A stretch of 33,689 nucleotides of DNA from Candidatus Woesearchaeota archaeon. GTDB lineage: Archaea; Nanobdellota; Nanobdellia; Woesearchaeales; GW2011-AR4. Both the position numbers and the translations under genes were made by a program. Position 1 is the stretch's first letter, and every line of letters begins with the position of its first letter. Below the pieces are notes generated by a model that was given only the letters and a program-made list of their open reading frames with translations, was not told the DNA's origin and ran no database searches. The stretch lies in the NCBI GenBank assembly GCA_016187495.1, contig JACPJP010000008.1, forward strand, positions 1 to 33,689. Direction: 5' to 3'. Positions 16,039 through 29,582 of the stretch are shown here, piece after piece.

Positions 16039-16135
16039 AGCTTTTAAATAGTGGCTTATTTTCAATAGTCAGATAATACATTACAGTCCACAACCAATGT
16101 TTATTAAAATTTAACATGAATTCAGGATTCACAAC

Positions 16136-16404
16136 GATAATATTTATTCAATAAAAAATAATAAGAGGATTTTTTGCTAGATAAAAATTGTGAAGGCAAA
16201 AAATACTCGAACGAAGTTCGGTATCCACTGCGTGGATAATCCAATGTAGTTGTGCACAAATAGAATAGGACAAAATTTTTCCTTTGCTCAGCAAGTAAGA
16301 AAATTTTCCTATTATTAATTTTTTCATTGAAATAAATTATTGCCAGTATAAAACAAATGAGAATGCAAATAGTTGTGTACATAAGATAAAATTTTAATTA
16401 TTGA
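16136..16404 (+). repeat. Noncoding element, copy A (homologous to 27001-27286 on the other strand)
   Basis: Four blocks occur in the same order as in copy B. Block 1 is GATAATATTTATTCAATAAA through TTTTTGCT (16136-16178). Block 2 is AATGTAGTTGTGCACAA (16243-16259). Block 3 is TTTTTTCATTGAA (16319-16331). Block 4 is AATAGTTGTG within 16352-16399. Hairpins: CGAAC-gaa-GTTCG (16208-16220), TATCCAC-tgc-GTGGATA (16222-16238), and a long one from AATAGG (16264) to CCTATT (16313). There is no supported ORF. The last block contains the AT-rich TATA-like ATAAAATTTTAA (16385-16396), about 26 bases before ATG of spt5, so the element borders or supplies that promoter. The rest of 16039-16135 shows nothing recognisable. 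Confidence 0.7.
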
Positions 16405-16416
16405 AGCTAATCCAAA

Positions 16417-24235: not shown

Positions 24236-26908
24236 ATGCACCACAAAAAACTGGAAGATGTATTTAAGGAATTAGAAACTGACGAAAACGGCCTTACAGA
24301 AAAAGAAGCAGAAGCAAGGCTGAAAAAATACGGATTGAATGAGATACAGCAATTAAAAAAAATAAGCCCAATTAAGATTTTTATAAACCAATTTAACAAT
24401 ATTGTCATTTATATTCTTATTTTTGCCTTAGCCGTTTCAATTTTCCTTAATGAGACCATAGACGCAATAGTCATCGGGGTAATTGTGATAGTAAATGCCA
24501 TTATTGGTTTTATACAAGAATACCGTGCAGAAAAGGCTATAGAAGCATTAAAAAAATTAGCGGGCTTAAGAGCTACAGTAAGGAGGGAAGGAAAGGAAAA
24601 GGAAATTGACGCCAAATTATTGGTCCCTGGGGATATTGTAAAGCTCGAAACAGGAGATAAAATACCTGCTGATTGCAGGCTTATCGATGTTACAGAACTG
24701 CAGACGCAAGAGGCCACTCTAACAGGAGAATCAACCCCTATAAAGAAGGAAATCTCTGTTCTTGCTGAGAAGACACCTTTGGCAGACCGCTTAAATATGA
24801 CTTTTTCTGGAACTATCATAACAAACGGAAAAGCACATGCAGTTATAACAGCAACGGGTATGCAGACAGAAATAGGAAAGATCGCTACACTTATAGAGGA
24901 AATCAAGCCTGATCTAACACCTCTGCAGAAAAAGCTGAACACCTTGGGAAAGAAACTAGGCATAGTTGTCATAATAATCAGCATAATTGTTTTCCTTACC
25001 CAGCTCTTCAAAAATCCTGCAGTATTGGGCTATTTGACTTCATTCCAATTTTTAGAATTTCTTAAAGGCTCCAGGGAAATTTTTCTTACAGCAATTGCGC
25101 TGGCAGTTGCAGCGATACCAGAAGGGCTTCCAGTTGTTGTAACAGTCGGTTTAGCCATTGGCATTAAAAGAATGGTCAAAAGAAATGCGTTAAACAGGCG
25201 ATTGCCATCCGTAGAAACTTTAGGCTCAACCACGGTAATATGCACGGACAAGACAGGAACGTTGACCAAAAATGAGATGACTGTAACAAAAATTTATGCC
25301 AATGGGAAAATAATAGACGTTACAGGCTCTGGCTATGATACAGAAGGGGAATTTTTATCCAATAATAAGAAAGTAAATCTTGACGAATTAAAATTATTGC
25401 TGAAAATCGGGGCTTTGAACAATGATGCCTCATTTGACAAGGAGAATGTTATTGGCGATCCAACTGAAGCTGCTTTATTGGTGAGCGCTGCAAAATCAGG
25501 AGTAGATTATGGGCAGCTAAGAAAAAAACATGCAAGAAAGCATGAAATACCTTTCACTTCTGAGAGAAAAATAATGACTACTATTCATGATATGGATGGA
25601 GATGTTGCTTATGTTAAGGGCGCGCCAGAAGTTGTTCTTAAATTATGCAATTCAATTTATGTAAATGGGGCGGTAAGGGAATTGAAAGAAAATGAGAAGA
25701 AAAACATTCTGCAGACAAATGCCGATTTCGCAGGTAATGCATTAAGGGTTCTGGGATTTGCATTTAAGGCAGTCACAGACGAATCAAGGGCAGAGAAGAA
25801 CCTTACCTTTGTCGGCCTGCAAGCCATGATTGATCCTCCGAGAGAGGAAGTCAAAGAGGCAATTGAGAAATGCAAAAAAGCAGGAATAAAAATTGTGGTT
25901 ATAACTGGAGACCATGAAGAAACAGCAAAGGCAATTGCAAAGGAGATAGGCATAGAGGGAATATCAATTACCGGCTCTCATCTTGAAAAAATGAGCCAGG
26001 AAGAGCTTGACAAAGAAGTTGAGGATATTGTTCTCTATGCAAGAGTCAATCCAGAGCATAAGATCAAAATTGTCAATGCCCTGAAGAAAAAAGGCCATGT
26101 TGTTGCTATGACTGGAGACGGAGTAAACGATGCTCCTGCACTTAAAAAAGCAGACATAGGCATAGCAATGGGCATTACTGGCACTGATGTTGCAAAAGAG
26201 GCTTCTGATACGATACTGCTCGACGACAATTTTGCTTCCATTGTAAACGCTGTGGAAGAAGGAAGAGGTGTGTATGGCAACATCAGGAAATATTTTTCCT
26301 ATTTAATATCTGGAAACATTGGCGAAGTTTTTATAATATTCCTTAGCATAATGTTTGGATGGCCTGCTGCCCTAACCGCTACACAGATATTATTAATCAA
26401 TTTGGTGACAGACGGCCTTCCGGCAGTGGCATTAAGCTCTGATCCTTATGAGCCGAATGCAATGTCAAGGAAGCCCCGTAATCAAAAAGATCCAATATAC
26501 AAGGACTTGCAGCCATTCATAATATATTACCCATCTGCATTGATAATAGCTGCATTGTCCGTTTTTTACTATTTTAACTTTATTAAAGGGAATTTGATTC
26601 AGGCCCAGACAGCTACTTTCCTTACGGTAGCAATGTTCGAGCTCTACCAAGCTTTTGCCTGCCGCTCTACAATTTATCCTGCAATAAAAGTTGGGCTTTT
26701 TAAAAATAAATGGCTGATTTTAGCCGTATTAAGCTCATTTGCATTAATAATTACTTCAATATTTATCCCCTCATTCGGCTCTTATCTTGATATGGTGCCC
26801 ATAACATTCATGGAATTTATTGCAATAGTTGCCTTGTCCAGCATCGGAGCGGTAATAATAGAGATTTCAAAACACTTAAAATCCAGAAACGAGCAGCTTG
26901 AGTACTAA
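24236..26908 (+). CDS. P-type Ca2+-transporting ATPase (SERCA/PMR1-like)
   Basis: The protein is about 890 aa. It has an N-terminal cation-ATPase domain (GLTEKEAEARLKKYGLNEI), then TLTGES in the actuator. CTDKTGTLTKNEM carries the phosphorylated Asp, and KGAPE is in the nucleotide domain. TGDGVNDAPALKKADIGIAMG is the hinge. Ca2+-site residues of the SERCA type are present: PEGLP in the fourth membrane helix, SGNIGE in the fifth, NLVTDGLPA in the sixth, and a Glu in FELYQAF in the eighth. Transport of Ca2+ (or Mn2+) out of the cytoplasm at the expense of ATP is expected. ATG 24236 is preferred to GTG 24227, which precedes it by three codons. Confidence 0.94.
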   Translation: MHHKKLEDVFKELETDENGLTEKEAEARLKKYGLNEIQQLKKISPIKIFINQFNNIVIYILIFALAVSIFLNETIDAIVIGVIVIVNAIIGFIQEYRAEKAIEALKKLAGLRATVRREGKEKEIDAKLLVPGDIVKLETGDKIPADCRLIDVTELQTQEATLTGESTPIKKEISVLAEKTPLADRLNMTFSGTIITNGKAHAVITATGMQTEIGKIATLIEEIKPDLTPLQKKLNTLGKKLGIVVIIISIIVFLTQLFKNPAVLGYLTSFQFLEFLKGSREIFLTAIALAVAAIPEGLPVVVTVGLAIGIKRMVKRNALNRRLPSVETLGSTTVICTDKTGTLTKNEMTVTKIYANGKIIDVTGSGYDTEGEFLSNNKKVNLDELKLLLKIGALNNDASFDKENVIGDPTEAALLVSAAKSGVDYGQLRKKHARKHEIPFTSERKIMTTIHDMDGDVAYVKGAPEVVLKLCNSIYVNGAVRELKENEKKNILQTNADFAGNALRVLGFAFKAVTDESRAEKNLTFVGLQAMIDPPREEVKEAIEKCKKAGIKIVVITGDHEETAKAIAKEIGIEGISITGSHLEKMSQEELDKEVEDIVLYARVNPEHKIKIVNALKKKGHVVAMTGDGVNDAPALKKADIGIAMGITGTDVAKEASDTILLDDNFASIVNAVEEGRGVYGNIRKYFSYLISGNIGEVFIIFLSIMFGWPAALTATQILLINLVTDGLPAVALSSDPYEPNAMSRKPRNQKDPIYKDLQPFIIYYPSALIIAALSVFYYFNFIKGNLIQAQTATFLTVAMFELYQAFACRSTIYPAIKVGLFKNKWLILAVLSSFALIITSIFIPSFGSYLDMVPITFMEFIAIVALSSIGAVIIEISKHLKSRNEQLEY

Positions 26909-27000
26909 TTTATTCATGGAGTGTCTAAAATAGCTTCTCGGATTAATTGCATGGAAATTAGGATGACATTTTCATTGTTTGATTGTCCATTAACTAATCG

Positions 27001-27286
27001 TCCATTAAAATTAATCTTACGATGCTCACAACTATTCGTGCTTTCATTTGTCTATTTAATCATATTTCCTTATTCAATGAAAAAACTTTGTTTTTTCTGG
27101 GTTTTCTATCGCAAACCATTAAAAAATTAAAATTAACAATGTGGAAATTTTTCTTAATGTCTTATTTATTGAAAAATTTCCAGATATGTTGATTGTGCAC
27201 AACCAACATTAGATTGTTTTTTGCATTATTGTGTCCAGTCAGCAAAAACCCCTATTATTTTTTCTTTTTATTGAATAAATATTATC
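27001..27286 (-). repeat. Noncoding element, copy B (minus strand, homologous to 16136-16404)
   Basis: Reading the minus strand, the same four blocks appear in order: GATAATATTTATTCAATAAA through TTTTTGCT (27286-27241), AATGTTGGTTGTGCACAA (27210-27193), TTTTTTCATTGAA (about 27085-27073) and ACAAATGA...AATAGTTGTG...ATTTTAAT (about 27052-27005). At the place where copy A has its long hairpin, copy B has GGAAATTTTTC/GAAAAATTTCC (27181-27171 with 27153-27143). The stem sequence differs but pairing is kept. The palindrome TTGTGCACAA is identical in both. There is no ORF. Confidence 0.7.
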
Positions 27287-27439
27287 TTTGGGAAAGATAG
27301 ATTTTTTATTGCTTTTTTATTATTAAAGTGTTTTGTGTGCTTTACTGGACTTTGTTTCGTAAATGTAAAAAGTGATAAAATACTTCATGCCATGTTGGAC
27401 TTGATGTGAACTTTCATTTTTTCGACATGCCCGTTCATT

Positions 27440-27459
27440 AAGATTTATAAACAAATCTT
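27440..27459 (+). promoter_or_regulatory. elp3 promoter with inverted repeat around the TATA box
   Basis: AAGATTT (27440-27446) and AAATCTT (27453-27459) are exact complements on either side of the TATA core TTTATAAA. The TATA centre is about 26 bases before ATG 27474, giving a leaderless mRNA. The symmetry could be an operator. Confidence 0.5.
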
Positions 27460-27473
27460 CATTCTGGCTTGCT

Positions 27474-29582
27474 ATGGAATTAAAGCAAATCTGCCGCGAG
27501 ATTTTAGAAGAAGCTAAGAAAAATAATGTCCAGGACTTAAGAAAATTCAACCATATAAAGCTGCAAGTTCTTAGCAGATTAAACTATAGCAAGATACCAA
27601 AAAATGCCACAATTGCTTCTTTGGCTTCAGATGAAGATAGGAAGCAGTTTAAAAAAATACTGTCAATGAAGCCTGTAAGGACAATTTCCGGCGTTGCTCC
27701 GATAGCTTTAATGGCAGACCCTTACCCATGCCCTCATACAATCAAAGGCATAGGGCCATGCACCTACTGCCCCGGAGGCCCAGGAAGCGTTTTTGGCGAT
27801 GTCCCTCAAAGCTATACTGGGAAAGAGCCAAGCACGAGAAGAGCTATAAGAAACCTTTATGACCCATATCTTGGAGTCTTCAACAGGCTGGAGCATTATG
27901 TTGCAATGAATTCTGTGCCAGAGAAATGCGAGGTTATATTGCAAGGCGGTACATTTCCTTTTTACCCTAAACACTATCAGGATTACTTTGTTAAATACCT
28001 GCTCAAGGCAATGAATGATTTTTCCATGTTGTTTTACAATGAAAACGGAATGGATCTAGGCAAATTTAACAAATTTTTTGAGCTGCCTGCAGATATAGAC
28101 AATGAACAAAGAACTAGGAGTATTCAAGGAAAATTACTTTTTATCAAGAATTTGGATTTGAATGATGAAAAAATATTATGGTCCATAAACCATTTGTTTT
28201 TTAATAATAAAAATAATAATGGCCTAAAAAATGAATTAATTGCACAATGGGGAAACTTCAATGAAAAAAATTACAATGAAACAAAAAACAGCAATGAAAA
28301 TAATGATTACAATAATTTAGTTACAATAAAAAGTTATTCCAATAATAAAATTAATACGATATTTAATAATAGTCTAATTAATAATAATTTAAGTAATAAT
28401 AAAAAAATAACTAATAATTTTAAAAATGATAAATTAAAAAGTAATAATTCTAATGAAAACAATTCAAATCCAAATATTGCAGCTATGAAACGAGTTTTGG
28501 CAAAAGTCAATGAACGGAATGACCGTAATAGTTCTCTAGAGCAAATACAAAAAGAAAACGAGACTGCTAAAATAAGGTGCATTGGACTTACGATAGAGAC
28601 AAAAAGCGATTATGGTAAATTAGCGCATGGCAATCAGATGTTAAGGCTTGGATGCACGAGAATAGAGCTAGGCATTCAGAGTGTTTATGATGGGGTTTTG
28701 GAAAAAACCAACAGGGGTAATACGGTTCAAGATAACATAGACTCGATAAGAATTCTTAAGGATTTGGGCTTTAAAATAAATGCGCACTATATGCCTGGAC
28801 TTCCATTTACAACGAAAGAGATGGACAAAAAAGGATTAAGGGAATTATTTGCAAACCCAGATTACAGGCCGGATATGCTGAAGATATACCCATGTATGGT
28901 AATGCCAGGAACAAAGCTTTATGATGACTGGAAGGCTGGGAAATTTAGCCCCATGACAACAAAGGAGGCTGCCGAGTTAATCGCGGAAATGTTTTCTTAT
29001 GTCCCGGAATGGTGCAGGATTATGCGTGTTCAAAGAGATATCCCAACTTATGCGACAGCCTCTGGCGTTGACAGGACCAATTTAAGGCAGTATGTTGAAA
29101 AATTATGCAATGAAAAGGGAATAAAGCCAAGAGATATAAGGGCAAGAGAAGCAGGGTTCAATAAATTAAGGAGCGACAATATAAATTTAAAAAATTTAAG
29201 AATTAAAGTAATTGAATATGAAGCATCGCATGGAAAAGAATTTTTCATAGCAGCTGAAGATGGAAAGAATGATGTTTTATTTGGATATTGTAGGCTAAGA
29301 TTTCCATCACAATCACTAAGAGAAGAAATAACGAAAGACTCTGCCTTAATTCGCGAGCTGCATGTCTATTCATTAGCTGTTTCAATAGGAAAAAAATCAG
29401 AGGAAAGCTTCCAGCACCGCGGCATTGGTAAAAAATTGATGAAAAATGCAGAGGAAATTGTAAAAAGCAGCGGAAAAAATAAAGTAGTGGTTATATCAGG
29501 CATTGGGGCAAGGGAATATTTTGCTAAATTAGGCTACAAACATGATGGGCCTTATATGTCTAAGATGTTGAATTTAGTATAA
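27474..29582 (+). CDS. elp3: Elp3 family tRNA U34 carboxymethyltransferase (radical SAM plus acetyltransferase) with large Asn-rich insertion
   Basis: The radical-SAM cluster motif C-x9-C-x2-C (CPHTIKGIGPCTYCPGG, about 84-100) and RCIGLTIETKSDY, GCTRIELGIQSVYD and INAHYMPGLP mark the catalytic core. The GNAT domain at the C terminus includes LRELHVYSLAV, FQHRGIGKKLMKNAEE and GAREYFAKLGYKHDGPYMSK. The enzyme builds the cm5 group on wobble uridine using SAM and acetyl-CoA. Archaeal Elp3 is usually about 520-560 aa; here it is 702. The excess lies at about 205-360, between KYLLKAMNDFS and the ENETAKIRC block, and is dominated by Asn, Lys, Ser and Ile. The insert is in frame. The gene ends 9 bases inside the convergent 70-aa ORF. 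Confidence 0.93.
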   Translation: MELKQICREILEEAKKNNVQDLRKFNHIKLQVLSRLNYSKIPKNATIASLASDEDRKQFKKILSMKPVRTISGVAPIALMADPYPCPHTIKGIGPCTYCPGGPGSVFGDVPQSYTGKEPSTRRAIRNLYDPYLGVFNRLEHYVAMNSVPEKCEVILQGGTFPFYPKHYQDYFVKYLLKAMNDFSMLFYNENGMDLGKFNKFFELPADIDNEQRTRSIQGKLLFIKNLDLNDEKILWSINHLFFNNKNNNGLKNELIAQWGNFNEKNYNETKNSNENNDYNNLVTIKSYSNNKINTIFNNSLINNNLSNNKKITNNFKNDKLKSNNSNENNSNPNIAAMKRVLAKVNERNDRNSSLEQIQKENETAKIRCIGLTIETKSDYGKLAHGNQMLRLGCTRIELGIQSVYDGVLEKTNRGNTVQDNIDSIRILKDLGFKINAHYMPGLPFTTKEMDKKGLRELFANPDYRPDMLKIYPCMVMPGTKLYDDWKAGKFSPMTTKEAAELIAEMFSYVPEWCRIMRVQRDIPTYATASGVDRTNLRQYVEKLCNEKGIKPRDIRAREAGFNKLRSDNINLKNLRIKVIEYEASHGKEFFIAAEDGKNDVLFGYCRLRFPSQSLREEITKDSALIRELHVYSLAVSIGKKSEESFQHRGIGKKLMKNAEEIVKSSGKNKVVVISGIGAREYFAKLGYKHDGPYMSKMLNLV

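Follow-up and report, generated by a model that had tools for sequence, protein, structure and literature searches.

The window, which is the whole 33,689-nucleotide stretch of DNA analysed here, contains a 516 bp element between its Ca2+-ATPase and elp3 genes. This element, copy B, probably belongs to a family of mobile intergenic repeats, non-coding and non-autonomous, ~300–520 bp long and each a layered imperfect palindrome with nested modules. Copies would be mobilised in trans, and selection would act on their orientation. The family is best read as MITE/BOX/ERIC-like and as tolerated mainly in sense inside operons. The genome of the window (G000; 778,074 bases in 31 contigs, 67.2% complete) is marked as archaeal by genes for SecE/Sec61-gamma, Spt5, FttA, the proteasome and a split RNA polymerase A; its size and kinship suggest DPANN or Woesearchaeota. 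Mobile intergenic repeats in a small-genome archaeon would invade essential informational operons without breaking them.

The unusually long gap that a preliminary description had reported at this locus is confirmed, with 565 bases separating the stop of the Ca2+-ATPase gene at 26908 from the start of elp3 at 27474, both on the plus strand. Copy B occupies positions 26918–27433 on the minus strand, antisense to both flanking genes, and has outer inverted repeats at both ends; the extent of 27001–27286 originally proposed for it takes in the core but stops short of either end. The outer terminal inverted repeat at the 5′-end of the element (27411–27433, minus strand) is CGGGCATGTCGAAAAAATGAAAG, the family form being GGGCGTGTCTAAAAAATGAAGG, while the one at its 3′-end (26918–26940), read inward on the plus strand, is GGAGTGTCTAAAATAGC. 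The direct repeat TTCAT adjoins the element on the ATPase side (26913–26917) and on the elp3 side (27434–27438), and is a possible 5-bp target duplication, although other copies have no uniform duplication. Just outside the element, a TATA-like box of elp3, TTTATAAA (27444–27451, plus strand), has been retained, and by eye a similar box is found upstream of elp3 in most relatives. The conserved core of copy B (27125–27264, minus strand) scores 99.5 bits against R1, the core covariance model. On the same strand it comprises hairpin H1, with its 5′ arm GGGGTTTTTGC at 27242–27252 and its 3′ arm GCAAAAAACAATCT at 27211–27224, a 22-nt middle hairpin predicted from the single-copy fold (TGTTGGTTGTGCACAATCAACA, 27187–27208), and hairpin H2, whose 5′ arm TGGAAATTTTTC (27171–27182) and 3′ arm GAAAAATTTCCA (27142–27153) are perfectly paired over 12 bp. 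Module M3, GTTTGCGATAGAAAACCCAGAAAAAACAAAGTTTTTTCATTG (27075–27116, minus strand), is the sole M3 copy in G000. No ORF of at least 80 aa is found inside copy B, and a 69-aa frame crosses one of its arms.

Copy A, also in the window, lies in the secE/spt5 gap in sense with both genes (16040–16416, plus strand, ends approximate), and its conserved core (16155–16326, plus strand) scores 97.7 bits with R1. The view that copy B is a second, minus-strand element resembling copy A is borne out by this shared match to R1 and by a DNA search of the genome of the window, in which a copy A-like match falls within copy B (C21:27241–27294, E = 3.7e-9, 83% identity). Searches of G000 at the DNA level returned 31 matches with copy B as the query and 39 with copy A, which were merged by hand into 26 places. 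Model R1, whose training set was 19 G000 copies plus one from the congener G003, finds 23 places in G000, among them two new ones (C15:17179 and C18:8883). The family total is therefore 28 places, five of them without an R1 match, and the search for all genomic copies that had been proposed as a check supports a dispersed element. In G003, 10 R1 matches correspond to nine copies, one match (L130) being the reverse strand of another (L122) and left uncounted. Large proteins with intein splicing domains adjoin copies C3b and C20 (L044:2733–5000 and L055:2–2347).

At E ≤ 0.001, R1 matches only G000 and G003 among 36 genomes of the same family; the other 34 have no match and serve as a control for base composition. 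Chance similarity of AT-rich intergenic DNA is exceedingly improbable as an explanation, although the DNA is indeed AT-rich and dominated by A/T runs, and some weak matches in relatives fall in coding DNA. A DNA search with copy B gives weaker matches in 11 of 39 genomes (G000 included); some of these lie in coding DNA and are noise, and others are right-half relatives. Exact 23-nt copies of module M1 are found, whereas the reversed control pattern has no match. The possibility, raised at the outset, that the block similarities arise from base composition alone is ruled out by the R1 search of the family genomes together with the covariation seen in 27 native copies. A pattern search for H1 in a wider contig collection gave two matches (Vibrio and a Paceibacterota MAG), both due to chance. 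At the gathering score, Rfam has no match in 20 copy loci, and within the window it matched only a tRNA. The literature searched, which lay largely outside subscription journals, yielded no account of a comparable family from DPANN archaea or Woesearchaeota.

The copies share a common anatomy. In element orientation, the left end is GTACAATAAA or GTCCATTAAA followed by CACAAC; next comes H1, whose arms have the family form GGATTTTTTGC / GCAAAAAATAATCC. A middle hairpin of the type GTTGTGCACAA lies between H1 and H2, the arms of H2 are of the type AAAATTTC / GAAATTTT, and the right end is GTTGTG..CATAAGATAAAA, or GAGCATCGTAAGATTAATTTTAATGGAC instead in the B type. The inner ends of the family can be written as GTACAATAAA..CACAAC / GTTGTG..AAGATAAAA..TTTAATGGAC. 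In single-copy folds, hairpins are often closed by AATAATAGG/CCTATTATT. The order H1–middle–H2 and the conserved ends are common to 19 G000 copies.

Two of the three core hairpins, H1 and H2, covary; these are the two that the test covered. Twenty hand-trimmed copies, with M1 removed from five rows, contain 15 double-change cells compared with 8.0 in shuffles, and have a covariation score of 0.124 compared with 0.078. When 27 native copies are placed on the model, 93.2% of cells are paired, against 88.7% in shuffled and at most 60.8% in slid alignments, a result favoured by the fitting of this alignment to the structure. The same copies contain 34 double-change cells where 15.8 are expected, and score 0.192 compared with 0.119, values reached in 0 of 500 shuffles in either case. 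This model alignment (A4) leaves out L111 + (a reverse-strand palindrome match), as well as L126 and L128 (above the cut-off). A model-free comparison of the H2 arms agrees, since arms of the same copy pair at 8.81 of 10 positions and arms of different copies at 8.22 (0 of 10,000 permutations). Covariation alone is no proof of RNA function, since replication can make the two arms of a DNA palindrome conform to each other. Nor is the strand told by folding alone, for the two strands fold about equally well (fold z in eight copies of −1.8 to −3.8 in sense and −1.2 to −4.6 in antisense). The earlier notion that the outer blocks are held while the centre is exchanged is not borne out: H1 and H2, at the centre, are the most conserved parts and covary, while the outer arms occur in at least two forms.

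Insertion is demonstrated at four loci (ATPase/elp3, secE/spt5, rrp4/rrp41 and rpoA′/rpoA″) where relatives have sites free of the element. The rpoA′ and rpoA″ genes are joined as TAA-A-ATG, with a 1-nt gap, in G001, G002 and G004, and are separated by a few bases in G005, whereas in G000 the left half of an element lies between stop and start. All 14 relatives viewed at secE/spt5 are free of the element there. In G003 and G004 this gap is ~50 nt and opens with the same promoter-like CCCTAAAGCTTTTAAATA, which places copy A between that sequence and the spt5 start codon. The element-free ATPase/elp3 gap is 39 nt in G008 and likewise short in G015. The same gap in G001 (L108) contains a different inverted-repeat insert, GGTAACGGTGCC .. 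GGCATCGTTACC; in the other relatives viewed, elp3 is preceded by another gene. At rrp4/rrp41, inspection by eye shows a short gap in G005 and remnants in G002 and G003. The rrp41 frame at the G003 locus (L163; G003:C26:19233) has several in-frame stops and an overlapping second match, perhaps through an assembly frameshift. An ancestral intercistronic spacer was also considered, and is ruled out by the element-free secE/spt5 and rpoA′/rpoA″ gaps. Four of the nine G003 copies share their gene pair with a copy in G000 (OapB/OapC, proteasome/fttA, SecDF/EamA and RDD/S49, the last of these shared on the strength of the upstream gene alone). As some sites are shared and others element-free, part of the insertions must predate the divergence of G000 and G003, and others came after it. 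Filled and empty sites in congeners are in effect a natural experiment on the tolerance of archaeal operons to insertions.

The modules of the family are nested and exchangeable as units. Copy B lacks the hairpin pair CGAAC/GTTCG and TATCCAC/GTGGATA, as had been stated, while copy A has it at 16206–16238 (plus strand) as module M1, CTCGAACGAAGTTCGGTATCCACTGCGTGGATA, a 33-nt unit of two short G+C hairpins. The seven M1 copies of G000 all lie within family copies and take up three positions. In five of them (A, C22a, C12a, C7a and C31) M1 sits in the 3′ arm of H1, to which 27211–27224 is the counterpart in copy B, and in C12b and C22b it is located elsewhere. Two loci (L057 and L058) have a 23-bp similarity to M1 that a 17-nt string does not recover. 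M3, present in copy B and absent from copy A, follows TTTTCAATG, or a sequence much like it, in the right half, and occurs at the same point in G016, in G009 and at two places of G002; by eye, the site in G016 is the rpl1/rpl10 gap. An M3-like unit is also found in G034, a genome of another family. C15a (L034) and C3a (L043) have in common, at different positions, a third nested module whose two hairpins are AGCAAAAGACAC..GTCTTTTGCT and GCGGACAACT..GTCCGC. Of the suggested conserved frame with an exchangeable centre, the exchangeable parts are therefore real, M1 and M3 each being either there in full or missing, but they are nested inserts and not a variable centre. In G003, intergenic REP-like arrays of small AT-rich hairpins occur at L114, L120, L126, L128 and L163, some of them nested in family copies, and their spacers are short and constant (GGTGTCC, GGTGAACTGG and CCGGTTTCCC).

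An alternative is that the spacers have grown by repeated insertion and recombination of REP-like hairpin modules (M1, M2, M3, H1 and H2) from a shared pool, so that there would be no unit with defined ends. Such an origin would account for M3 standing by itself in G002, G009 and G016 and the M3-like unit in G034, for the hairpin arrays in G003 gaps, for the three positions that M1 takes up in family copies, and for C7b and C6b, which retain only part of it. It is nevertheless unlikely. Amplification of a whole unit is favoured because the order H1–middle–H2 and the ends are shared by 19 G000 copies and M1 is confined to family copies.

The outer repeat has the family form GGGCGTGTCTAAAAA, from which the two ends of copy B differ by 2 and 3 mismatches. 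It is present on seven of the 27 copies examined, at both ends in five (B, C22a, C9a, C3b and C15b) and at one end only in C22b and C12b, and is missing from the other 20. Flanking repeats, the check proposed for transposition, are seen as TTCAT at copy B and as offset repeats at C9a and C15b, and none is clear at C22a or C3b; a duplication is thus a candidate at copy B, but C22a, C9a, C3b and C15b have no common length or offset. Across 25 genomes, the GGGCGTGTCTAAAAA pattern matches eight times in G000 and once in G008, and in the flanking sequences viewed (G000 being 67% complete) no transposon with matching ends was found. The family is called MITE-like and is not filed in a named family, because inverted ends occur in only seven copies, target duplications are non-uniform and the end-pattern search gave no parent transposon. 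Copies bearing the outer repeat at first seemed to differ in orientation from those lacking it (p = 0.014), a difference discarded when p rose to 0.14 once C27 and C9b were counted as repeat-free. From G000:C22:4758 onward lies an element of ~165 nt (L079) that shares the outer inverted repeats (GGGCGTGTCTAAAAAATGAAGGTTAGC) but has a different, G+C-richer centre and neither H1 nor H2; ends like its own are also present at C1:23999 and C7:28289. This element is possibly a MITE whose ends wrap copy B.

Orientation relative to the neighbouring genes is strongly biased. Neighbours were called from ORFs and Pfam for 27 of the 28 G000 copies (all but C18:8883). In co-directional gaps, 19 copies are in sense and three (B, C15a and C29) in antisense (p = 0.0009), or 19 and four (p = 0.0026) if C9b is included, which is probably antisense, its tRNA neighbour having been read by eye and not recovered by the tRNA search. 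The remaining placed copies are three in convergent gaps and one in a divergent gap. In G003, 9 of 9 copies are in sense with the upstream gene, some neighbours being known from an open frame alone, and four of these copies are insertions shared with G000 and so not independent. A pooled orientation test (27 v 3) was set aside, since it mixes shared insertions of two species. Over 26 copies, the sense strand contains 2847 A and 1989 T, and T-runs of five or more number 55 in sense and 83 in antisense. The A-richness of the sense strand may simply come from genome strand bias.

The neighbours of the copies include informational genes (spt5, rpoA′/A″, rrp4/rrp41, fttA, pelota, L18e and L34e). 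Together with the sense bias, the covarying hairpins and the four G003 copies at G000 loci, they would fit a structured RNA encoded by the host, either a leader or intercistronic, by which informational genes are regulated and which selection has kept, with losses in some relatives. Such a regulator is quite improbable, as no congener viewed has the element at secE/spt5 or rpoA′/rpoA″, genes for MFS, MgtC, glycosyltransferase, invertase and redoxin proteins adjoin copies as well, and antisense, convergent and divergent copies exist.

For a mobile family, the bias could be explained by what transcription encounters in each orientation. U-tracts terminate archaeal transcripts, so antisense copies would be expected to cut operons more often. 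A transposase that recognises the ends would move copies in trans, and selection would purge antisense copies from most operon junctions. Sense copies, being A-rich and having fewer T-runs, would let transcription pass to the next gene, while antisense copies would present U-rich tracts that could end it. Copy B has five T-runs of five or more on its sense strand and eight on its antisense strand, which is the ATPase-sense strand. Its place downstream of the ATPase stop codon and upstream of the promoter that elp3 itself has, where termination of the ATPase transcript would be harmless, would explain why it is tolerated in antisense. Judging from its sequence, copy B may serve as the end of the ATPase transcript. 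As for the proviso, made at the outset, that the region may be just 3′ UTR, copy B could well be part of the transcribed 3′ region of the ATPase gene, yet it is an insertion all the same. When transcribed, sense copies would fold into three hairpins in the intercistronic stretch, or in the leader in the case of spt5, and these may tag the mRNA for processing or stability by analogy with ERIC and Correia elements in bacteria. It is rather doubtful that the family is instead a transcription-coupled mobile RNA element of archaea, inserting preferentially, and in sense, between a stop and the next start, even into a 1-nt gap such as rpoA′/rpoA″, with a sense bias that stems from the insertion mechanism and not only from selection. 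If that were so, each copy would supply a folded RNA of its own as a module between cistrons, and would spread through the informational operons while nested modules pass from copy to copy. The family also bears on the relation of orientation to U-tract termination and on the shuffling of small hairpin modules.

In behaviour, the family comes nearest to BOX, ERIC and Correia elements and to archaeal MITEs (PMC3049150, PMC2229807, PMC10969869). The BOX elements of Streptococcus pneumoniae are dispersed, intergenic and modular, with part B absent or repeated (PMC3049150). As with BOX, the transcript is predicted to fold, copies lie inside operons or as 5′ or 3′ extensions, and mobility in trans is proposed (PMC3049150). 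Unlike BOX, the archaeal family has modules nested at several places instead of a tandem box B (PMC3049150), a strong sense bias and element-free sites inside essential-gene operons. The enterobacterial ERIC/IRU and the Neisseria Correia/NEMIS elements are short palindromic mobile intergenic repeats co-transcribed with their neighbours; orientation matters for ERIC, and a long form of Correia has a 50-bp internal sequence (PMC2229807, PMC10969869). Compared with these elements, the archaeal copies are longer (300–520 bp) and have three hairpins instead of one long stem, and a TA target is not seen. The resemblance to BOX, ERIC and RUP is taken as likeness and not as descent. The SM1–SM4 MITEs of Sulfolobus belong to IS families with known transposases. 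Like these archaeal MITEs, the family is multi-copy and apparently non-coding, with inverted ends on some copies and without a transposase of its own (PMC10969869). It differs from them in that an end-pattern search found no transposase for it and in that the outer repeat is on 7 of 27 copies. The Chunjie MITE of Geobacter has conserved inverted ends and direct repeats, and the passage describing it makes no mention of a sense bias or modules (PMC10969869). The family combines traits of the BOX/ERIC type, being intergenic and in operons with a predicted base-paired fold and modular insertions, with those of MITEs, namely inverted ends in seven copies and filled and empty sites at four loci.
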